A stretch of DNA of 59,030 nt. Origin: an uncultured Desulfosporosinus sp. (GTDB lineage: Bacteria; Bacillota; Desulfitobacteriia; Desulfitobacteriales; Desulfitobacteriaceae). Shown in pieces: positions 31,643-58,367 of this stretch. Both the position numbers and the translations under genes were made by a program. A model generated the notes under the pieces. The model worked only from the letters and a program-made list of their open reading frames with translations. It was not told the origin of the DNA and made no database searches. The number at the start of each line of letters is the position of its first letter. Within the stretch, counting starts at the first letter, position 1. The stretch covers positions 1 to 59,030 of the forward strand of contig CAKMJS010000016.1 in assembly GCA_927405585.1 (NCBI GenBank), written 5' to 3'.

Positions 31643-32143
31643 ATGAAAACAAGACCCAAACTGATGATATGCGCCCTGATATTTTTGACCGGCGGTTTTG
31701 TCAATCTCTTTTTCTCAACCGCCCTTCATGGGCTGCTGTCAAGGCAGATGACGGTATTGAAGCTGCTGCCCATCGGTGAATGCCTTGCCAGTCTTTTTTC
31801 AAGCAAACAGCATCTTCTTCTTTATCTTTGCGTGCAGGGCTTCATGCTGATTCTGGCGGTGATGTACTTTCTCACCAACCTGCGGCCCTATCAGTCGGAT
31901 TTGACGGAAATTACCCCGGATATCAAAACACCCGTTGCGGTGGGACAGTACCAACACGGTTCGGCAAGATGGCTTAAAGACGCCGAAAAGGACAAAGCCT
32001 TTGCAAGCTTTGCCTTAAATCCCCACAACAAGGTTATCAAGGCGCTTATCAAGGGCGGCTATGATAATATAGACTTTCTGAAAAACAAGAAGGACAAGGA
32101 AAAGGAGGTTGAGGACGATAGTTCATCCCAAGACAATCCCTAA
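31643..32143 (+). CDS. virD4: VirD4-type coupling protein, N-terminal membrane part
   Basis: 166 residues with two transmembrane helices (~7-30 and ~55-75), then LRPYQSDLTEITPDIKTPVAVGQ and YQHGSARWLKD, the usual N-terminal region of Clostridia-type VirD4 proteins that normally continues straight into the ATPase domain. Here it stops at DSSSQDNP and the ATPase continues in another frame. Probably one gene broken by a frameshift. Confidence 0.8.
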   Translation: MKTRPKLMICALIFLTGGFVNLFFSTALHGLLSRQMTVLKLLPIGECLASLFSSKQHLLLYLCVQGFMLILAVMYFLTNLRPYQSDLTEITPDIKTPVAVGQYQHGSARWLKDAEKDKAFASFALNPHNKVIKALIKGGYDNIDFLKNKKDKEKEVEDDSSSQDNP

Positions 32144-33698
32144 ACCAAAACCGGAACCCATTGAAAACGCCGCCTTTGCTTTACGCGAGGGCGGCGTTGT
32201 GATTGGCATGAAAAAGGAGGGCGATAACGAGCACATCTATTATGTGGGCGAGGACAGCCATCTGCTGTGTATCGGCGCCACCCGCAGCGGCAAGACCCGC
32301 AACCTGGTGGTGCAGTCCATCTGCACCCTGGGATTGGCCGGGGAATCCATCGTGGTCAGTGACCCGAAAGCGGAGTTGTACGACTACACCGCGGAATTTC
32401 TCGAAAAACTCGGCTACCGGGTGCTGGTGCTGGATTTTAAAACTCCCGCCAAAAGTATGCGCTACAACCTGTTGCAGCCTATTATCAATGCGGTCAACCA
32501 TGACGACACCGACAGGGCGGAAATGCTGGCCTGGGATCTGACCAACAACTTTGTCGGCAAGCCGGAAGGCGAAAAAATCTGGACAAACGGCGAATGCTCC
32601 ATCATTGCCGCTGCCATCCTCTGCGTGGTGTGCGATAACAAACGCCGGCCCGATTACCAGAACCTCACCAATGTCTACTGGTTTATCGCCGAAATGGTGA
32701 AGATGATCGGAAACAAAATGCCCCTCTTAGAGTACGTCAAAAAACTTCCACCCTCACATCCCGCCAAGGCGCTGCTTTCCATTTCCGATGTAGCGCCGTC
32801 AAGGACAAGGGGCAGCTTCTACACCTCCGCTTTGACAACCCTCAGATTGTTCACTTCAAGGTCCATCTATTCCATCACCCATACCAGCGACTTTGAATTG
32901 CAGGACATCGGGCAGGAAAAGCAGACATTGTTCATCATATTGCCGGACGAAAAGACCACCTTTTATCCTGTAGCCTCCCTCATCGTGTCGCAGCAGTATG
33001 AGCTTTTGGCGAATCTGGCAGATACAAGAGGTGGACGGCTCAAGCAGCGGGTCAACTTCATGCTGGACGAATTCGGAAATTTCACCACCATAAGTGATTT
33101 TGCGAACAAACTCACAGTCGGCGGTGGGCGCGGGATGCGGTTCAACCTGTTTATTCAGTCCTTCTCCCAACTGAAAGAAAAGTACGATGAGAACATCTCG
33201 GATACCATCAAGGCCAACTGCCAGACCTGGGTTTATCTACAGGCTGATGACCTGGACACCCTGCGGGAGATCAGCGAAAAGCTAGGCACTTACACCGTTT
33301 CCAGCTATCAGCTATCGGCCAATCACGCGAAGTACACCACCCCGTCAAGCTCCCACAGCATCAGCTTGATTGAACGCAAGCTTTTAAATGTGGACGAAGT
33401 GCGGCGGGTTTCCCGTCCCTACCAGATCGTCACGTCCCGGACCCATCCCGCCATCATGTTTTCTCCCGACCTGTCGGAGTGGTATTTTAACAAAATGCTG
33501 GGCCTGGGGGATAAGGAGCATAACCGGAAACTGCGGGTGGAACGGGAGCAGAAACGCCCGGTCATCACCGACGTGGGCAAGGAAATCGCCCTGTGGAATA
33601 TCTGGGTCTACTACCAGAAGGACATCCTGCGCAAGCTCCAGCAAAAGGCCGCGGAGGGTAAAGGCCAATCAGTGGCCAGAGAAGCGGATATGGATTGA
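32109..33698 (+). CDS. virD4: VirD4/TraG coupling ATPase domain
   Basis: Up to 529 residues. Walker A GATRSGKT (56-63), Walker B region RVNFMLDEFGNF, and FILPDEKTTFYPVASL. It brings the relaxase-DNA complex to the transfer channel. The only upstream start, TTG 32109, directly abuts AAGGAGG, too close for initiation. This supports a frameshift that split a single coupling protein; a GTG or ATG near 32196-32208 would trim the N-terminus. Confidence 0.8.
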   Translation: MRTIVHPKTIPKPKPEPIENAAFALREGGVVIGMKKEGDNEHIYYVGEDSHLLCIGATRSGKTRNLVVQSICTLGLAGESIVVSDPKAELYDYTAEFLEKLGYRVLVLDFKTPAKSMRYNLLQPIINAVNHDDTDRAEMLAWDLTNNFVGKPEGEKIWTNGECSIIAAAILCVVCDNKRRPDYQNLTNVYWFIAEMVKMIGNKMPLLEYVKKLPPSHPAKALLSISDVAPSRTRGSFYTSALTTLRLFTSRSIYSITHTSDFELQDIGQEKQTLFIILPDEKTTFYPVASLIVSQQYELLANLADTRGGRLKQRVNFMLDEFGNFTTISDFANKLTVGGGRGMRFNLFIQSFSQLKEKYDENISDTIKANCQTWVYLQADDLDTLREISEKLGTYTVSSYQLSANHAKYTTPSSSHSISLIERKLLNVDEVRRVSRPYQIVTSRTHPAIMFSPDLSEWYFNKMLGLGDKEHNRKLRVEREQKRPVITDVGKEIALWNIWVYYQKDILRKLQQKAAEGKGQSVAREADMD

Positions 33699-45732: not shown

Positions 45733-46422
45733 TTGATTTTCCCAATCATTATGATTATGGTGTGCGCTGCCCTGGGGGGCGGCGCTTTTCTTTTCATCAG
45801 GTTGTCGGACACAAGGAAAAAACAGGCTGCGGCAGCGGACGGCCAGCAAAAGACAGCCAATGAGTTTGTCAACGTCAAGGACATCAAAGGCAAGTATCTC
45901 TACACAAGAGACCAGCTTGTCCTCTGTTATCTGAAAATAAACCCCATCACCATCGACCTGTTCAGCAAGGGCGAAAAACAGCAACTGGTCAAGCAGCTTA
46001 CAGCGAATATGTCCGGCATACAGCACCCCTTTAAATTTCTTGCCGTATCCCGTCCGGTGGACATTACGCCCCTGATCTCCGAGCTGTCGACGGCGCTTGC
46101 CACCTCCGACCCCAAGCAAAAAGAACTTCTCAAACAGGAAATCCTGGAGATGACCACCTTTGCCCTGTCCGGCGAGGTGGTGGAGCGACAATTTTACATC
46201 GTTCTCTGGGAAAAAGCCGACGAGGGCGCCGAAAAGGAGTTGCTGGTGAAGGCAAAGGATTTTGTGGGAAACCTCGACGACTGCGGGATAGGCAGCGAAA
46301 TCCTGGAACAGCAGAATATTGTACGGCTCTGTAACCTCATCAACAACCCCGCCTACATGCACCTGGAGGACACGGACTTTACGCCTTCCATTCCCATTTT
46401 AGGCGGAGGTGTTGTATTTTGA
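45733..46422 (+). CDS. VirB4-associated membrane protein of the T4SS
   Basis: 229 residues from a TTG after GAGGTGG. One N-terminal helix (PIIMIMVCAALGGGAFLF), then a soluble domain (DQLVLCYLKINPITIDLF, HPFKFLAVSRPVDITPL) resembling the N-terminal domain of VirB4-type proteins made as a separate chain. It overlaps the VirB4 gene by 4 nt. Confidence 0.7.
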   Translation: MIFPIIMIMVCAALGGGAFLFIRLSDTRKKQAAAADGQQKTANEFVNVKDIKGKYLYTRDQLVLCYLKINPITIDLFSKGEKQQLVKQLTANMSGIQHPFKFLAVSRPVDITPLISELSTALATSDPKQKELLKQEILEMTTFALSGEVVERQFYIVLWEKADEGAEKELLVKAKDFVGNLDDCGIGSEILEQQNIVRLCNLINNPAYMHLEDTDFTPSIPILGGGVVF

Positions 46423-48260
46423 TAGGAATCTCAAGAAAAAAGACCGAGTTTGTACCGGTTAATGAGGCCCTGTTAAACGTCATTTCTCCGATGGGGCTTG
46501 AAATCAAGAGAAATAGCCTGGTGATCGGTGAAAACACGGGAAAGATTTACGGCGTTGTCCGCTATCCGCAAAAGGTGGATTCAGGCTGGCTGAGTAAAAT
46601 CACCAACATACCGGGCACCCTTGTTTCCATCGGCATCCAGCCGGTGGACAACAGTGCATTGATTTCAGCCATATCCAAGAGCATTATTCAAAACCGGGCT
46701 GCCGCCGACGGCGCAAAAGACCCCTTGACCCGGCAGAGAAGCGAAAAAGCCGCAGAGGACGGGGAGCGGATCATGCTCCAAATCGACCAAAACGGCGAAA
46801 CTGTGGCGTTGATGAGCCTTGTCATCATGCCGGTGGCCCATGACGAAAAAAGCTTTGTCAAGGGGTGCCGAAGGGTGGAGAGTGTCGTCAACGTTATGAA
46901 ATGCAAGGTCAGAACCCTTGCCAACCTGCAAAAAGAGGGCTTGCAGACCATTTCCCCGACCTATCCCTCCAATCCGGTTGTGGAGAGCATTGTGCAGAGG
47001 ATTATCCCCATGAGCACCTTTGTGGGCGGATTTCCCTTTGCAAGCTCCGGTTTCAATGACGGCACCGGGTACTATTTTGCGAAGGACAACAACGGCGGAT
47101 TGATCATAGTAGACACCTGGAAGCGCGGCAATGACCGCACCAATTCCAATATGGTCATCATGGGTGTTGCCGGTGTGGGTAAGTCCACCGCCGTCAAGCA
47201 TATTGCCCTGGCCGAATACATGAAAGGCACCAAGCTGATTTTCATCGACCCCGAATCGGAATACCGGGACCTGTGCCTGAATTTGAACGGCGACTGGATT
47301 AACGCGGGGGGTGGAGCCAACGGCAAAATCAATCCCCTGCAAATCCGGCCTGCGCCGAGGGACAGCGAGGATGAGCCGGATGAAAAGGGCGGTAAGCTGT
47401 ACCGGGACGAGGGCAACGGCATGTCGGACATGGCGCTCCATGTTAAGAATCTGGAAATCTTCTTCAATCTCTACCTGCCCAGTCTCACGGACATGCAGAA
47501 GGCCATCCTGAAACAGAGCGTCATCGAGCTTTACAACCGCTTCGGCATCTATTGGAACACGGATATAACCACCCTGTCCAACACACAGTTTCCCACCTTC
47601 AGCGATCTGCATAAGTTGATTTCCGAAAAAGCGGAGAAGGACAGCAACAATCCCGTCTATCGTGACCTGGCCTTGTTGCTCTATGATGTAGCCAACGGCA
47701 GCGACAGTTTTTTATGGAACGGACACACCGCCGTTGAAACCCATTCCCGCTGCATTTGTTTGGACACCCATTCCCTGCAAAACACAAGCGAAAACATCAA
47801 AAGGACGCAATACTTCAACCTGTTGACCTGGTGCTGGGAGCAGATGTCCAAAGACAGAAGCGAGCGGGTACTGCTCATTTGCGATGAGGCCTACCTGATG
47901 ATCGACCCCCAGGTGCCGCAGAGCCTTGTGTTTTTGCGCAATGTGGAAAAACGGGCCAGAAAATATGAAGCAGGACTAATCATCATCTCCCACAGTGTCG
48001 TGGATTTTCTTTCCCCTGAAATCAAGATGTATGGGCAGGCCCTGCTGGACATCCCCTGTATCAAAATCATTATGGGTACGGACGGAAAGAATTTGCAGGA
48101 AACAAAGGAACTTTACAATCTTACCGAAGCGGAGGAAGAATTGCTGGAAAGCAAGAAACGAGGCCACGCCTTATTTGTGATCGGTTCCAAGCGTCTGCAC
48201 GTCAATTTTGAGATACCTGAATACAAGTTTGACTATATGGGTAAGGCTGGAGGAAGATAA
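46419..48260 (+). CDS. virB4: VirB4-like conjugation ATPase
   Basis: 613 residues with Walker A GVAGVGKST (249-257), FIDPESEYRDLC, Walker B LLICDEAYLMIDPQ and IIISHSVVDFLSPE, all typical of VirB4/TraC ATPases that energise the transfer channel. It has the TTG start of an ATGA-like overlap with the previous gene. Full length. Confidence 0.9.
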   Translation: MIGISRKKTEFVPVNEALLNVISPMGLEIKRNSLVIGENTGKIYGVVRYPQKVDSGWLSKITNIPGTLVSIGIQPVDNSALISAISKSIIQNRAAADGAKDPLTRQRSEKAAEDGERIMLQIDQNGETVALMSLVIMPVAHDEKSFVKGCRRVESVVNVMKCKVRTLANLQKEGLQTISPTYPSNPVVESIVQRIIPMSTFVGGFPFASSGFNDGTGYYFAKDNNGGLIIVDTWKRGNDRTNSNMVIMGVAGVGKSTAVKHIALAEYMKGTKLIFIDPESEYRDLCLNLNGDWINAGGGANGKINPLQIRPAPRDSEDEPDEKGGKLYRDEGNGMSDMALHVKNLEIFFNLYLPSLTDMQKAILKQSVIELYNRFGIYWNTDITTLSNTQFPTFSDLHKLISEKAEKDSNNPVYRDLALLLYDVANGSDSFLWNGHTAVETHSRCICLDTHSLQNTSENIKRTQYFNLLTWCWEQMSKDRSERVLLICDEAYLMIDPQVPQSLVFLRNVEKRARKYEAGLIIISHSVVDFLSPEIKMYGQALLDIPCIKIIMGTDGKNLQETKELYNLTEAEEELLESKKRGHALFVIGSKRLHVNFEIPEYKFDYMGKAGGR

Positions 48261-51792: not shown

Positions 51793-51948
51793 AGTTATCG
51801 TCAATTCGGGAAAGCGTGGAAGTCATTAAGAATAGCGGACTTGCTCATGAGTTCAATAAATATAATATAATATTTGCGGCACTGTTAATTATTCCTGCAC
51901 TTGACCAAGTATTGCCTATGTGATACATTTAATTTGCAAATTTAATAG

Positions 51949-52111
51949 ATGAGCAAGCGATTTTTCTTAGCCGAGAAATCATAACAGGGAAGCTGGTGTA
52001 AATCCGGCGCGGTCCCGCCACTGTAACGGGGAGTTTGTGCCACATCCACTGAGGAAACTTGGGAAGGAGGTGATAAACGAGGAACCTAAGTCAGGAGACC
52101 TGATTGCTCAT
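51949..52111 (+). promoter_or_regulatory. Cobalamin riboswitch 1
   Basis: Contains GGGAAGCTGGTGTAAATCC, the B12-box core GGTCCCGCCACTGTAA and AGTCAGGAGACCTG, the conserved elements of the cobalamin riboswitch in order. ATGAGCAA (51949) pairs with TTGCTCAT (52104) as P1. A terminator hairpin follows 44 nt later, so high B12 should stop transcription. Confidence 0.93.
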
Positions 52112-52154
52112 ATGCTTTACTCACGATGAATGGGTGGCAGGAATTATTTAATTC

Positions 52155-52182
52155 AGCCCTTCATATTTTGGAGGGCTTTTAT
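52155..52182 (+). terminator. Riboswitch 1 terminator
   Basis: AGCCCT / AGGGCT with an 11-nt loop and TTTTA after. Expected expression platform of the first riboswitch. No convincing gene follows it before the second riboswitch. Confidence 0.7.
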
Positions 52183-52309
52183 ATATTTGGATGTGTACAT
52201 AAAATGGTTTCCCGAGGGAAACTGACCTGCAGGGTAAATGCCTTGTTCAAGCGGGATCTGCTTTCAAAAATGCGAATGCGACTTGAAAGCGGAGGAGAAC
52301 GCGCCGTCC

Positions 52310-52372
52310 GAGACAATCGATACATTGCTGTCTTTATGACTAGTGATAAGAGGTTGTCTCTTTATTTTTTTA
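52310..52372 (+). terminator. Second terminator between the riboswitches
   Basis: GAGACAAT pairs with GTTGTCTC (long loop), followed by TTTATTTTTTT. The stretch 52183-52310 also holds small hairpins (GTTTCCC/GGGAAAC; CTTTCAA/TTGAAAG) but no recognisable gene. Confidence 0.5.
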
Positions 52373-52484
52373 TAAGGAAAGGGGAGAAACATACATATTG
52401 CAGAAGGGATGCCACCAGTGACTAATGCAATTTGCAATTGGGTACAGTGTAGGCAAAATAACTAAAAACTAAATACATAGGAAA

Positions 52485-52643
52485 TTTAGGTACCGAAGTT
52501 TGAGAACTTCAGTTTAAAAGGGAAGCAGGTGTAATTCCTGCATGGTCCCGCCGCTGTGATGGGGAAATGTTTCATTTATACCACTGGTTGAGACTGGGAA
52601 GGTATGAAACATTGATGATCCAGAGTCAGAAGACCTGCCTGAA
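52485..52643 (+). promoter_or_regulatory. Cobalamin riboswitch 2
   Basis: GGGAAGCAGGTGTAATTCC, GGTCCCGCCGCTGTGAT and AGTCAGAAGACCTG appear in order. TTTAGG (52485) and CCTGAA (52638) close P1. It diverges in sequence from riboswitch 1, so this is not a recent duplication. It lies 192 nt before the nifH-like gene. Confidence 0.92.
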
Positions 52644-52716
52644 TGCTACACGCCAATACTCTACGAGCGATGGAGGAGGTATTATTAGTGCTGAACAAAT
52701 GCTGATCAGTATTTTT

Positions 52717-52749
52717 AGCCTCTTGACCAATCGGTTGAGAGGCTCTTTG
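52717..52749 (+). terminator. Riboswitch 2 terminator
   Basis: AGCCTCTTGACC / GGTTGAGAGGCT, a 12-bp stem with G-T pairs and a 4-nt loop, with a modest T tract. It sits between the aptamer and the nitrogenase-like operon, the expected off-switch. Confidence 0.65.
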
Positions 52750-52834
52750 CGTCGAGTGGCTTATTCTTTTGCGGGATGTATCAAGCGTTTAATGGCTAGA
52801 TATTGTAGTTTTACGGAATAGTGAGGAAATTGAG

Positions 52835-53686
52835 ATGAATGCACAAAAAGAGAGAAACTGTTTGAGGATCGCGTTCTATGGAAAAGGCGGAATCGGAAAA
52901 TCGACAGTGGCTGCCAATATTTCTGCAGCATTGGCAATGCAAGGACTTAAGATATTGCATATCGGGTGCGATCCTAAGGCGGATTCCGCAAGATGCCTCG
53001 TAGGGCGCAAAATCCCTACGGTCTTGCAACAATTGCATACCAAGCAGGATGGCATTTCCCTGCAGGATATTGTATTTCTCGGTTTTAGCGGGGTTAACTG
53101 CATTGAAGCGGGAGGCCCCGAAGCCGGCATTGGTTGTGCGGGTAGGGGAATTATCACCATGATGGAGGAATTGAAATATCTGGAACTATGGGATGAAGTC
53201 TGGGACGCCGTTGTTTATGATGTCCTCGGTGATGTCGTGTGCGGTGGCTTTTCGGTTCCGATGCGTGAAGGGTATGCAGATACAATTTATATTGTAACAT
53301 CATCAGAATTTATGTCGATCTATGCTGCCAACAATATCATGAAGGCGATCAGCAGAAGCCAGGGGACAAGGCCAGTGACACTGGGGGGATTAATTCACAA
53401 CTGCAGAAATGGCGAGTCGAGTAGGGCGGCAGTTGAGCAGTTCGCCATTTTGACGGGTACTCGGGTAGTGGCTGATGTCCCTTTCAGCCGGGAAATTGCC
53501 CTTTCGGAACTCGAAGGCAAAACAGTTCTAGAAAAGTTCCCAGATTCACAGGCAGCTTGTTTCTTTAAGGATTTGGCGGGTGTTATCACTGAGAATCAGG
53601 GTTATAGGCGAGTAAAAGCACTTGATGATGATGAACTGGAAAAATTCAGTCACTACATGCTTGATCTGGAATTGCGAAAAGCATAG
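52835..53686 (+). CDS. NifH/BchL/CfbC-like iron protein (nitrogenase-like reductase)
   Basis: 283 residues. P-loop GKGGIGKST (16-24), GCDPKADS (44-51). The two cysteines that hold the bridging [4Fe-4S] cluster in the dimer are C101 (GIGCAGRG) and C136 (DVVCGGFSVP). R104 matches the site ADP-ribosylated in NifH. So it is an ATP-driven electron donor, shared design with nitrogenase, chlorophyllide/protochlorophyllide and F430-precursor reductases. Weak family features in the C-terminus. First gene after the two B12 riboswitches. Confidence 0.9.
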   Translation: MNAQKERNCLRIAFYGKGGIGKSTVAANISAALAMQGLKILHIGCDPKADSARCLVGRKIPTVLQQLHTKQDGISLQDIVFLGFSGVNCIEAGGPEAGIGCAGRGIITMMEELKYLELWDEVWDAVVYDVLGDVVCGGFSVPMREGYADTIYIVTSSEFMSIYAANNIMKAISRSQGTRPVTLGGLIHNCRNGESSRAAVEQFAILTGTRVVADVPFSREIALSELEGKTVLEKFPDSQAACFFKDLAGVITENQGYRRVKALDDDELEKFSHYMLDLELRKA

Positions 53687-53719
53687 GTAGACGGGTGCTG
53701 GAAATTGGAGGAAATGAAA

Positions 53720-54964
53720 TTGTCTTGCACGGGATATATAAGAACAAGCAGCAGTGAAGAAAAGATCAAACTTGCGGATATCGCGGATAAAATGCCGCTG
53801 GACAGCTTTTTTGATAGGGGTATAGCGGACGATGATTGTGGGGAACTGGTCAATTTGGCCTTATGTGTACCGGGCATTGATGTAGTGGCGGCAGGTCCCT
53901 CATCCTGCTCAAGAGTATTATATTTTAGGGCTGAGAAAAAGGGCTTAAACGAAAATCTATTCCTGCTCCCGGTATCCAGCAACGATTTTGCTACCGGGAA
54001 GCATCTAGAAAAATTGGAAGAGGCGCTAGAAGGTCTTGTGACTTCGCGCCAGCCAAAAGCGATCATCCTTTATCTTACCTGTGCCGATATTCTGACGGGT
54101 ACTGAGTTTGTAAGCATAACAAAACGAATAGAAAGCCGTTATGGGATACCGGTAAAGGTTTTTGAGCGGGGGCCGCTTTCTCGGAGAAGGACACTTCCTA
54201 AAGCTCGGCTAGGTGATATTTTTATCGATTTGATGCAAAGGGGCGTCCTGCAAGAGACGAAAAGCCACATCAATGTGTTGGGAGACTCAGGAAAACTTCC
54301 TAAGGATTTCGGCCTGAGGCAGATACTCATGAATTATTGCTCTAGTGTGGAAATCAGAGAATTTGCCGCGCTGGACTCCTACGGAGAATTTAAGGACCTA
54401 GCAAATGGAAAGTTGAACATCGCCTTGGATCGTTTTGGTTACGATTTGGCGGTGCGTATGCAAGAAAAATGGGACATTCCCTTCCTATACTTGCCTGTTC
54501 GATACAACATGAAAGAGATTAGGAATAACTATGCAGCGCTAATGGAGGGGCTTCAGGTCACTTGGGATTTTAGCCAGGATGCCAAAGAGTACCACAAAGT
54601 TGCTTCTAAAGTAGCTGTGGCATTGGTTGGAAAACGAATTGCAGTGGGGATTGGGCCAAGGTCTTTCGAGCTTGCCTATGTGCTGGAGTTGATCGGCCTT
54701 CCTGTTGCTGCAATATTTGCCGAAACAGTGAACAAGCAAGAAATGACGTATATTCACGCGCTCTCCGCCACGGGAAGCCAGGCGGAGGTTTATTTGGTTT
54801 CAAACGTAAACGTTGAAACACAGACGGGCGGGTTTGAAGGAATAGATATCGCTATTGGAGAAAAAGCATCGTTTTATTGTATAAAAGCAAAAGAAATATT
54901 GGTGAGTGCCGACTATCGTTTCGGATATGAGGGGATCATGGAAATTTTGGAGGGTATGCGATGA
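53720..54964 (+). CDS. Nitrogenase component 1-like subunit, NifD/NifE side
   Basis: 414 residues from a TTG 8 nt after GGAGG; an ATG at 53714 is too close to it and a TTG at 53705 is the longest option. From the chosen start, C40, C63 (in AAGPSSC) and C121 (YLTCAD) match the three NifD cysteines that hold the P-cluster or a [4Fe-4S] cluster. The stretch matching NifD's Cys275 region (LNIALDRFGYDLAVRMQEKW) has Leu there, so no FeMo-cofactor ligand. It is ~60-70 aa shorter than NifD, closer to the tetrapyrrole-reductase-like members. It overlaps the next gene (ATGA). Confidence 0.85.
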   Translation: MSCTGYIRTSSSEEKIKLADIADKMPLDSFFDRGIADDDCGELVNLALCVPGIDVVAAGPSSCSRVLYFRAEKKGLNENLFLLPVSSNDFATGKHLEKLEEALEGLVTSRQPKAIILYLTCADILTGTEFVSITKRIESRYGIPVKVFERGPLSRRRTLPKARLGDIFIDLMQRGVLQETKSHINVLGDSGKLPKDFGLRQILMNYCSSVEIREFAALDSYGEFKDLANGKLNIALDRFGYDLAVRMQEKWDIPFLYLPVRYNMKEIRNNYAALMEGLQVTWDFSQDAKEYHKVASKVAVALVGKRIAVGIGPRSFELAYVLELIGLPVAAIFAETVNKQEMTYIHALSATGSQAEVYLVSNVNVETQTGGFEGIDIAIGEKASFYCIKAKEILVSADYRFGYEGIMEILEGMR

Positions 54965-56205
54965 GAAAATTTTTGACCAGCGTGCCTTCGTTGGCAAGTG
55001 ACTATTCTGGAGCCTGTTCTGTTCTCTTTGCTCTGCCTTCACTTAACCTGCTGTACTCGCCCGGCGGGTGTAGCAGCGCAGTCATTGAATGTGATGAGAT
55101 CAGGGATTTGCGGCAGACCTTGTTCTTCAGTTCCAAGCTGGGGGAGATGGAAGCCGTCATGGGCGCAGAAGACGAATTCCTGTATCATGCGGAAAGGCTC
55201 TGGGCGCAAAATAAGCAGGCTGAATTCATCGCAGTTATAGGTACGCCGGTCCCAGCTTTGACGGGAGTCGATATCGGGGCAATTGCGGATAGGCTGAGCA
55301 GTCGGACAGGCTTGACTGCCTTGGCGCTTCCTACGGAGGGATTTGAGACCTACTACTCTGGCGTTTACTATACGTTGTTAACCTTGGGAAAACGTTTTCT
55401 GGAAAGGAGAGAAAAGAAGAACAATCAAGTAAATATCGTCGGGTATACACCCCTAAGTCTGGGCAAGGAAACACATTTAGCCGAACTCATGGACGAACTG
55501 GAGCAGTTCGGTCTTGAAATCAATGGTTCGCCAGTAGGGAAAATAGACATAGAAACTTTTAAGAAAATGTCCTCTGCTGCTTTGAACCTAGTCGTGTCAC
55601 ATGAGGGCTTAGGGCTTGCCCAATATATGCAAAAAGAATATTCAATACCTTATGTCATGAGTGTGCCAGTAGGTTTATGGGGTATGCAGCGGTTGTTTCA
55701 GGTTCTGGCGGAGATAGTAGATATTCCTATGGACTACACAAACAAGCAACGATACGCCCCAAAGGGCACAGCTCAGCCTGAACAAAGAGCCGTCGTGATA
55801 GGCGAACCTCTATTTGCTTCCTGCATCGCATCTTGCCTGCATAACGACTTTGGGCTTGACTATGTTGAAACAACCAGCTTGATGAAAATGGATAGACGAA
55901 TGAAGAAAGTATATCAGGAAGAGGCGCTTTCCGGTGTTCACTTGTTTGAAGGCGAGGAAGCGTTGGCCCAGTGGATTGATAGAATACAGCCGGATATTAT
56001 TGTCGGCGACCCTCTGTATCAGAGACTTCTAGGCGAAAGCGGTACCCAGTATGTGCCTATCCCGCATGTAGGGTTGAGTGGCCCTATATATGCCAGTGCG
56101 CATTACGAGTTCATCGGAAGTTCTTTTGTGGCTTCCCTCGATTGCTCTGCCAATTTTTTAACTTCTTCAGCTACAACGGCAAACCCACGACCTTGTCAGG
56201 TTTAA
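54961..56205 (+). CDS. Nitrogenase component 1-like subunit, NifK/NifN side, altered C-terminus
   Basis: 414 codons. C19 and C37 (LLYSPGGC) match the first two NifK cluster cysteines; C44 is nearby. The third is absent (AVIGTPVPALTG at the NifK Cys153 position). The family sequence runs to about AHYEFIGS (base 56120). The last ~28 residues are the antisense of a chemotaxis receptor gene, so the true C-terminus has been lost or replaced. Whether the remaining protein works is open. Confidence 0.8.
   Translation: MRKFLTSVPSLASDYSGACSVLFALPSLNLLYSPGGCSSAVIECDEIRDLRQTLFFSSKLGEMEAVMGAEDEFLYHAERLWAQNKQAEFIAVIGTPVPALTGVDIGAIADRLSSRTGLTALALPTEGFETYYSGVYYTLLTLGKRFLERREKKNNQVNIVGYTPLSLGKETHLAELMDELEQFGLEINGSPVGKIDIETFKKMSSAALNLVVSHEGLGLAQYMQKEYSIPYVMSVPVGLWGMQRLFQVLAEIVDIPMDYTNKQRYAPKGTAQPEQRAVVIGEPLFASCIASCLHNDFGLDYVETTSLMKMDRRMKKVYQEEALSGVHLFEGEEALAQWIDRIQPDIIVGDPLYQRLLGESGTQYVPIPHVGLSGPIYASAHYEFIGSSFVASLDCSANFLTSSATTANPRPCQV
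56121..56195 (-). pseudogene. Fragment of a methyl-accepting chemotaxis protein gene
   Basis: Read on the minus strand, the DNA encodes QGRGFAVVAEEVKKLAEQSR and ends in EATKE, the hallmark of the MCP signalling hairpin. Both ends of the gene are missing. It lies inside the 3' end of the NifK-like frame, marking a rearrangement breakpoint. Confidence 0.85.
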
Positions 56206-57642: not shown

Positions 57643-57963
57643 CACTCCCCACAGATGAATCTGGGGGATCCCTGGGGATTAAACGAGAACAGACTTCACG
57701 AAGAGCTAGATCAAAAGCCTTTTCATCCCTTAAATGGTCAAGAACCTGAAGAGTTTTTACACGGGTCGTTGCCCAACTCTCTCCCTATGGACACTGGGGA
57801 GAAACCAATTAAGGCTGGCGCTCCCTCGATCCTCCGTGATCCGATGGTATTTATGCGCAAGCGATCCTTGGATTTTAATGTAATTTATAGTAAATCAAAG
57901 AAAAGTTGACAAACTAAATTCTTTAACATATAGTAATAAAAATTACTGTAATTGAATATTTTA
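57643..57963. other. Non-coding stretch with a hairpin, possible insertion-sequence end
   Basis: CACTCCCCACAGATGAATCT with GGGGG after it forms a hairpin (CAGAT/ATCTG, CCCC/GGGG) directly after the preceding stop. Hairpins of this look occur at ends of IS200/IS605-type elements (memory-based). An 84-codon frame (57655-57909) crosses the region but resembles no protein. Nothing else seen. Confidence 0.3.
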
Positions 57964-58055
57964 CAAATAGAGCAGGCGATACACTTTCTTGAAGTGTGTG
58001 GGGCTGGGCTGGCTAAAGAGCTGGCAGCAGGAAAAATACCTGTGGGACTATAATT
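57964..58055 (+). promoter_or_regulatory. NiCo (czcD) riboswitch, putative
   Basis: AGCAGGC, a hairpin (ACACTT/AAGTGT), GGGCTGG, a second hairpin arm and CCTGTGGGACTAT follow the order of the nickel/cobalt czcD motif (GAGCAGGC ... GCAGCCGGGCTGC ... CTGTGGGACA, from memory). ATAG (57967) and CTAT (58048) can close P1. The right part overlaps the long terminator hairpin that follows, so ligand-bound aptamer and terminator exclude each other. Metal binding should turn the next gene on. Confidence 0.7.
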
Positions 58056-58090: not shown

Positions 58091-58106
58091 ATTGGAGTTG
58101 GTATTT

Positions 58107-58367
58107 GTGAATTTATTTCGTTTTAATGTCATAAGAAAAAATAAATTGCTTGTGATTATAGCGCTCATATTATTCTCGTTGCTGTCTGTGTCTATGCCTC
58201 ATGGCTCTGTTGAGACATATCACCATCACCATCATCAGCATGAGAGCCTATTTAAACAAGTTATGAATAATAACAAACCAGAAGCCAAATTAAAAAAAAT
58301 ACTCAAAAAAATAAAGACATTTTTACTTAGTATAATATCTAGACTGCCACAATTTTCATTGATGTGA
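58107..58367 (+). CDS. Small His-rich membrane or exported protein
   Basis: 86 residues from a GTG after TTGGAG (a TTG 15 nt earlier would begin on the ribosome site). Basic N-terminus, one hydrophobic segment (LLVIIALILFSLLSVSMPHG), then TYHHHHHQHES, a compact metal-binding cluster, and a basic amphipathic C-terminus. Its place directly behind a NiCo-type riboswitch suggests handling of nickel or cobalt at the envelope. No family recognised. Confidence 0.65.
   Translation: MNLFRFNVIRKNKLLVIIALILFSLLSVSMPHGSVETYHHHHHQHESLFKQVMNNNKPEAKLKKILKKIKTFLLSIISRLPQFSLM

Follow-up and report, generated by a model that had tools for sequence, protein, structure and literature searches.

The contig CAKMJS010000016.1 of an uncultured Desulfosporosinus, whose whole 59,030 nucleotides are here called the window, carries an operon for proteins resembling the nitrogenase components NifH, NifD and NifK (below, H, D and K), and the operon is preceded by two tandem cobalamin riboswitches. 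It belongs to a separate, well-supported clade of nitrogenase-like systems in which B12 control and, in relatives, genes for an ATP-binding cassette (ABC) importer accompany the enzyme. What might such a system do? A tentative answer from sequence comparison, just short of probable, is B12-repressed import and low-potential reduction of a corrinoid or other cobalt tetrapyrrole, a substrate that we infer, with CobA adenosylating the product. At a similarly guarded strength, the window would hold a 3′-truncated copy of such an uptake-and-reduction operon.

Predicted B12 control of the operon

The region upstream of the H gene contains the following features (L and G numbers below denote loci and genomes).

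51901–51929, + strand: promoter-like site, TG-extended, TTGACC-17-TACATT, consensus match only
51938–52121, + strand: cobalamin riboswitch aptamer 1 (RS1), RF00174 103.3 bits, E 8.6e-25
52155–52177, + strand: hairpin 1 after RS1, terminator-like with a U-rich tail, from terminator scan and folding, z −4.1
52471–52656, + strand: cobalamin riboswitch aptamer 2 (RS2), RF00174 110.2 bits, E 9e-27
52717–52744, + strand: hairpin 2 after RS2, strong, with a short weak U-tract (CUUUGCG), z −3.0

Both aptamers span the full RF00174 model (1–189) above its gathering cut-off of 31.5 bits and are cobalamin riboswitches by covariance model, with adenosylcobalamin (AdoCbl) binding and control of expression predicted. 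They are dissimilar to one another; each has its own orthologue in other Desulfosporosinus, at 81–90% identity. In an aptamer tree RS1 groups with the RS1 of five Desulfosporosinus loci (support 100/99) and RS2 with the RS2 of four (93/91), so the two complete, dissimilar riboswitches that the original prediction had described are borne out both by full-length matches and by membership of different supported clades. Judged by these groupings the tandem pair is old within Desulfosporosinus; a recent duplication was ruled out, RS1 and RS2 being separately orthologous across the genus. Since the two are separately conserved, and in L106 stand on either side of an EamA gene and a NikE fragment, it may be operon shuffling that has brought them together. 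The tighter or graded response suggested at first for tandem switches would be a hypothesis.

The same prediction had placed a terminator-like hairpin after each switch. This stands for hairpin 1, with its folding score and U-tract; hairpin 2 was not reported by the terminator scan and its U-tract is short, so it counts as a possible intrinsic terminator. As for the promoter, the scan found four such sites where 2.5 are expected by chance, so the one before RS1 is weak evidence.

Would homologues elsewhere lack the riboswitch, which was to have counted against the initial reading? Within the clade they do not: RF00174 is found upstream in all 11 loci, at a distance from H that varies from 14 nt (L041) to 5.8 kb (L063, with NikABCDE-like genes between). 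Farther out the picture differs, none of about 26 sister loci scanned having RF00174 directly upstream of HDK; in two of them (L047 and L055) it stands before another gene with a molybdenum cofactor (Moco) riboswitch in between. Because these more distant importer-linked homologues are without the switch, B12 control marks the clade but not the family at large. The aptamers of L065, L067 and L066 are placed elsewhere in the aptamer tree, and as those of the clade belong to at least four lineages, B12 control has been kept or re-acquired repeatedly and was probably recruited several times. Elsewhere in the window's own genome (contig C82, L060:5897-9793) a cobalamin riboswitch precedes genes for a UbiD-family decarboxylase and hydantoinase/oxoprolinase A.

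A separate clade of nitrogenase-like proteins

52835–53686, + strand: H, NifH-like ATPase/reductase component, 283 aa, PF00142 E 2.3e-87
53705–54964, + strand: D, NifD-like component-1 subunit, 419 aa from a TTG start, PF00148 E 2.6e-16, 59.9 bits
54961–56205, + strand: K, NifK-like component-1 subunit, native to about 56120 with its C-terminus replaced, PF00148 E 4.1e-37, 128.4 bits

The three open frames run in one direction and either overlap or lie close together, and they are under purifying selection relative to their relatives (dN/dS, the ratio of nonsynonymous to synonymous substitution rates, 0.08–0.22). D and K both exceed the PF00148 gathering cut-off of 28.6 bits and so belong to the component-1 superfamily. 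Their nearest relatives are at other Desulfosporosinus loci (L063, L064, L065, L106) and in Propionispora sp. 2/2-37 (L067), a Peptococcaceae metagenome-assembled genome (L066), genome G086 (L041) and Clostridium simiarum (L068). Eight of the 11 clade loci found are intact, one (L064) is frameshifted, with H and K interrupted and the permease mostly gone, and two (L109 in G406, L110 in G410) are reduced to K remnants; a locus or remnant is present in 7 of about 29 genomes of the window's genus. A plasmid search for relatives returned distant ones only.

Curated models score the window proteins far below their cut-offs. For H the nearest is CfbC (327.8 bits vs 402), with nifH at 310 vs 394. The BchB model gives 58.5 bits vs 490, which does not amount to membership of the light-independent protochlorophyllide oxidoreductase (DPOR) family, whose proteins fall in separate clades. 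With the CfbD model TIGR03282 the K of L041 reaches 22.3 bits vs 268.4, and among the listed matches there is none for window D or K. When 76 component-1 sequences were placed in one joint tree, built without CfbD and IsrDK and with one Mar/Nfa-type pair, window D and K each lay inside a clade of the eight loci (Shimodaira–Hasegawa-like approximate likelihood ratio test 99 and 98). These clades are nested in a larger set of NifDK-like proteins linked to FecCD/BtuCD-type importers, apart from NifDK, NifEN, AnfDK, BchNB and the single Mar/Nfa-type pair, which groups with NifD/NifK away from the window clade. The deep branching order is unsure because, as the tree tool warned, the D group is joined by a long branch leading to BchN; the window clade itself is unaffected. 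The placement against characterised clades that had been proposed as a check, when run as a tree, leaves the window proteins outside every one that it covered, and this upholds the idea of an uncharacterised nitrogenase-like enzyme under B12 control.

That it is nonetheless a known enzyme, whether nitrogenase, DPOR or chlorophyllide oxidoreductase, CfbCD, or methylthio-alkane or isethionate reductase, is barely credible: the component-1 and NifH folds are shared, but the curated models (that for CfbD included) are far from satisfied, the clades are separate and supported (IsrDK lying outside the tree's sampling), the cofactor Cys and His are absent and the host carries its own nif cluster on another contig. 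Nitrogen fixation by the window proteins was ruled out on account of that separate cluster, on contig C111, together with the lost cofactor ligands.

Cysteines, folds and known systems

In profile alignment D-Cys68 and D-Cys126 correspond to NifD Cys88 and Cys154, and K-Cys37 to the matching K position. These three are kept in all aligned importer-linked sequences, including fused forms (see below), which retain only these two D and one K P-cluster positions; D-Cys45 and K-Cys19 are invariant across the eight intact clade members. The equivalents of NifD Cys275 and His442 in D are neither Cys nor His, and K has Ser at the Cys275 position, so the nitrogenase ligands are missing. The third P-cluster cysteine is absent from K, which has GTPVPA there, so the six-cysteine P-cluster of nitrogenase and methylthio-alkane reductase is incomplete. 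The cysteine set, as aligned, resembles the single [4Fe-4S] site of DPOR and not the P-cluster plus [Fe8S9C] that nitrogenase and methylthio-alkane reductase carry (PMC12552129).

Predicted folds point the same way for K (AlphaFold mean predicted local distance difference test, pLDDT, 77), whose best solved counterpart is BchB of DPOR (Z 28–32, mostly ≥31), with NifN, AnfK, MarK and other families at Z ≤28. D (pLDDT 83) matches MarD, BchB and NifE about equally (Z about 22–23.5). Cysteine positions and fold agree on a DPOR-like arrangement in which both cluster and substrate are predictions, and a shared fold is by itself no demonstration of function.

How does this compare with characterised systems? 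DPOR (BchL/BchN/BchB) likewise pairs a NifH-like ATPase with two component-1 subunits, and shares with the window system the predicted interface [4Fe-4S] and the absence of the nitrogenase cofactor; differing are the clade and the B12 riboswitch and importer genes of window-type operons, and BchB was not found in the host genome by TIGR01278. With CfbCD, whose corrin-like tetrapyrrole substrates provide a precedent, the likeness is in H, nearest the CfbC model; in contrast, the window system has two different component-1 genes, is bacterial and B12-regulated, and reaches neither the CfbC nor the CfbD cut-off. MarHDK and IsrHDK form a Group IV-type HDK operon like that of the window (PMC11423573, PMC12552129), and the window D fold matches MarD, tied with others; but window D and K are without the full six P-cluster cysteines or [Fe8S9C] ligands and lie outside the clade of the Mar/Nfa-type pair. 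No MarB/IsrB-like radical-SAM gene was seen within the HDK operon. The methyl-coenzyme M reductase activation complex is a precedent in which ATP drives a nitrogenase-like transfer of electrons to a metal held in a tetrapyrrole (PMC12176620); its proteins are others and the likeness is by analogy alone.

Importer, CobA and a possible mechanism

In seven relatives (L041, L063, L065, L066, L067, L068, L106) K is followed by genes for a PF01497-type substrate-binding lipoprotein (SBP), a FecCD/BtuC-type permease and an ABC ATPase. All three match models for vitamin B12, heme, F420-0 and siderophore transport below cut-off. The permease has BtuC as its best curated match (244 bits vs cut-off 461), and the SBP scores 41 bits with the BtuF model (cut-off 234) and has a close solved relative in 4ovk (443 bits). 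The CobA corrinoid adenosyltransferase gene lies 3′ of the importer in L064 (full length and borderline, TIGR00708 167.7 against a cut-off of 167.75) and 3′ of the K remnant in L109 and L110. The partners thus seen in relatives (PF01497-type SBP, BtuC-like permease, ATPase and CobA) are those of BtuFCD and CobA/BtuR, from which they differ in that the three transporter parts stay below the equivalog cut-offs and the importer is missing in the window. Between switch and H in L063 there are NikA-type (Opp5A) transporter genes, of which L064 and L106 have NikE remnants.

Two further arrangements may be recorded. In two distant genomes a gene for an EamA-family transporter has a cobalamin riboswitch of its own and stands directly before HDK (L106:6462-7532, L041:11653-12711); a B12-related transporter is possible. 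In the Desulfosporosinus loci L109 (1705-5681) and L110 (3990-4122), the operon remnant is closely preceded by molybdate-type transport genes with Moco riboswitches among them.

As a mechanism, low AdoCbl would cause the switches to let transcription through; in G086 (L041) control is probably translational because 14 nt separate the end of the aptamer from the start codon. The ABC transporter would import a corrinoid or other cobalt tetrapyrrole, and an H dimer would spend ATP in delivering electrons of low potential to a [4Fe-4S] cluster lying between D and K, with D-Cys68, D-Cys126 and K-Cys37 as candidate ligands, plus D-Cys45 in the window clade. The substrate would sit beside the cluster, as in DPOR, and reduction at the cobalt, at the Co–ligand bond or in the ring would then allow CobA to adenosylate it.

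Cobalamin riboswitches repress B12-independent isoenzymes in other systems, and one suggestion made at the outset was that the reductase, made when B12 is scarce, replaces a B12-dependent reaction. The conserved B12 control would suit such a substitute, produced upon failure of the B12-dependent reaction, but the genes linked to HDK are those of a BtuCD/FecCD-type importer, CobA and a NikA-type transporter, that is corrinoid or cobalt genes and none of a metabolic pathway, and because this linkage is conserved a B12-independent substitute is disfavoured and must be thought very improbable. The other half of that suggestion, a reductase made under B12 scarcity that acts on a corrinoid or tetrapyrrole, fares better and is favoured as a candidate, with a cobalt complex as a live rival.

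Fused forms, sister operons and the competing readings

D becomes shorter in steps, from about 419 aa to about 273 aa (L041:9747-10568, L068:8183-9001) and then to about 160 aa fused to K (L195:6926-8569, L196:7576-9291), all the while retaining domain I with two of the cluster cysteines. In L196 (G361), a divergent and independent case, a cobalamin riboswitch is followed by SBP, permease and ATPase genes and then by one for a fusion protein made up of D domain I (roughly 160 residues) and an entire K; in L195 (G199), where RF00174 was not found, this kind of fusion is accompanied by a TonB receptor, an SBP and a permease. Long D–K fusions occur also in L050 and L056.

Is component 1 then chiefly a scaffold or chaperone that binds an imported cofactor, in the manner of NifEN, rather than an ATP-driven reductase? 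Besides the shrinkage of D, there is the fact that G361, with its fusion, has no full-length NifH homologue (best PF00142 match 56 bits), because of which ATP-dependent reduction may not be universal. Set against a scaffold, and making it improbable, are the conserved NifH, with cluster cysteines and P-loop, that every intact clade member keeps directly upstream, and the NifH that G199 keeps elsewhere in its genome.

Sister NifHDK-like operons mostly carry FecCD/PF01497 importers. Some have Moco riboswitches (L047, with MoeA; L055, L069, L071, L111, L112, L172), some HydF and a radical-SAM HydE-like gene (L045, L048, L054) and some HypF/HypD/HypE genes (L050, L054, L056). Because these operons accompany Moco or hydrogenase genes a metal-complex theme is favoured, and each importer-linked branch seems to go with a metal cofactor of its own. 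That the window type is a nitrogenase-like ATP-dependent corrinoid reductase, acting on cobalt, upper ligand or ring, and one of several importer-linked, metal-cofactor-specific branches, is possible, if no better than a tentative proposal.

Several observations weigh against import and reduction of a corrinoid or cobalt tetrapyrrole. For the SBP, the matches to heme and siderophore binders are about level with that to BtuF; linkage to CobA is seen only in Desulfosporosinus loci where the operon is decaying; the TonB receptor of L195 scores as siderophore-type and B12-receptor models are unmatched; the absence of a full NifH from G361 has been mentioned; the sister importer-linked operons keep company with genes for Moco or for [FeFe]- or [NiFe]-hydrogenase and not for tetrapyrroles; and a close importer SBP is found nowhere else in the host genome, the best SBPs there being 25–28% identical.

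Some of these fit the main rival, cobalt acquisition, in which a cobalt–metallophore would be imported and the enzyme would reduce an inert Co(III) complex or its ligand, freeing cobalt for B12 synthesis. Cobalt uptake is also governed by cobalamin riboswitches, and the NikA-type genes of L063, the NikE remnants, the siderophore-type receptor and the sister operons (Moco riboswitch with MoeA, HydE/HydF-like, HypDEF), which fit a theme of metal-specific uptake, are all on its side. It is on the whole rather unlikely, as some species have CobA in the operon, the permease comes closest to BtuC, the fold of K is nearest a tetrapyrrole reductase, and no metallophore biosynthesis gene was recognised nearby.

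The truncated copy in the window

56121–56205, − strand: scar, part of a gene for a methyl-accepting chemotaxis receptor (GRGFAVVAEEVKKLAEQSREATKEL when read on the − strand) fused to the end of K, from translation

Homology of K to all relatives ends at about 56120 (codon ~387), from where the frame runs about 28 codons into unrelated DNA; this includes the reverse-strand fragment, which was assigned to the chemotaxis-receptor family from a conserved motif and not by profile. The window K is without its last ~12 native residues, and importer genes are absent downstream; of NikE, EamA, BtuC/D and CobA no remnants were found in the window except for one weak BtuC match at 22.7 kb. The NifH/D/K-like operon first described is accordingly sound as to three open genes with profile matches, but not as to the 3′ end of K. 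Since the window is a complete contig from a draft genome, the breakpoint may be a misassembly. Otherwise, this copy may be recently impaired, or dependent on another importer.

Is this genome's copy a decaying relic without current function? That would be compatible with any function of the clade, and is a serious possibility if not a probable one. The replaced C-terminus and the lost importer speak for it, as do the frameshifted (L064) and mostly deleted (L109, L110) copies of other Desulfosporosinus; against it, all three frames stay open apart from that end, and the window lineage has gathered nonsynonymous changes to much the same extent as the lineages of its relatives.

The surroundings have features of their own. 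Genes of a conjugative or integrative element occupy window positions 1590–51404, and the HDK operon is just past its end; they include a tyrosine integrase, serine recombinases, a VirD4/TraG-type coupling protein (32109–33698), a TraG/VirB4-like ATPase (46419–48260) and a 2788-aa methylase-helicase. Near the contig end a NiCo (nickel/cobalt) riboswitch (57958–58052, 62.5 bits) precedes a gene for a small His-rich membrane-like protein (58092–58367) with no Pfam match.

Implications

The chemistry of the nitrogenase family is known for N2, chlorophyll, F430 and C–S substrates, and to our knowledge no substrate has been assigned to most Group IV nitrogenase-like enzymes. In the open-access literature searched, a limited set without subscription papers, there was no description of a nitrogenase-like operon controlled by cobalamin riboswitches. 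The present comparison suggests that one member of the family, so far undescribed, acts on B12-like or cobalt compounds after their import. A riboswitch of known ligand, transporter genes and CobA together narrow the substrate to corrinoids or cobalt compounds, and so render an orphan enzyme testable. If true, a reaction on a corrinoid or cobalt complex would join the repertoire of the nitrogenase superfamily and anaerobic B12 salvage would gain a new step, while the sister operons, with their Moco riboswitch plus MoeA, HydE/HydF-like and HypDEF companions, suggest a wider rule by which such enzymes are tied to metal-cofactor supply.

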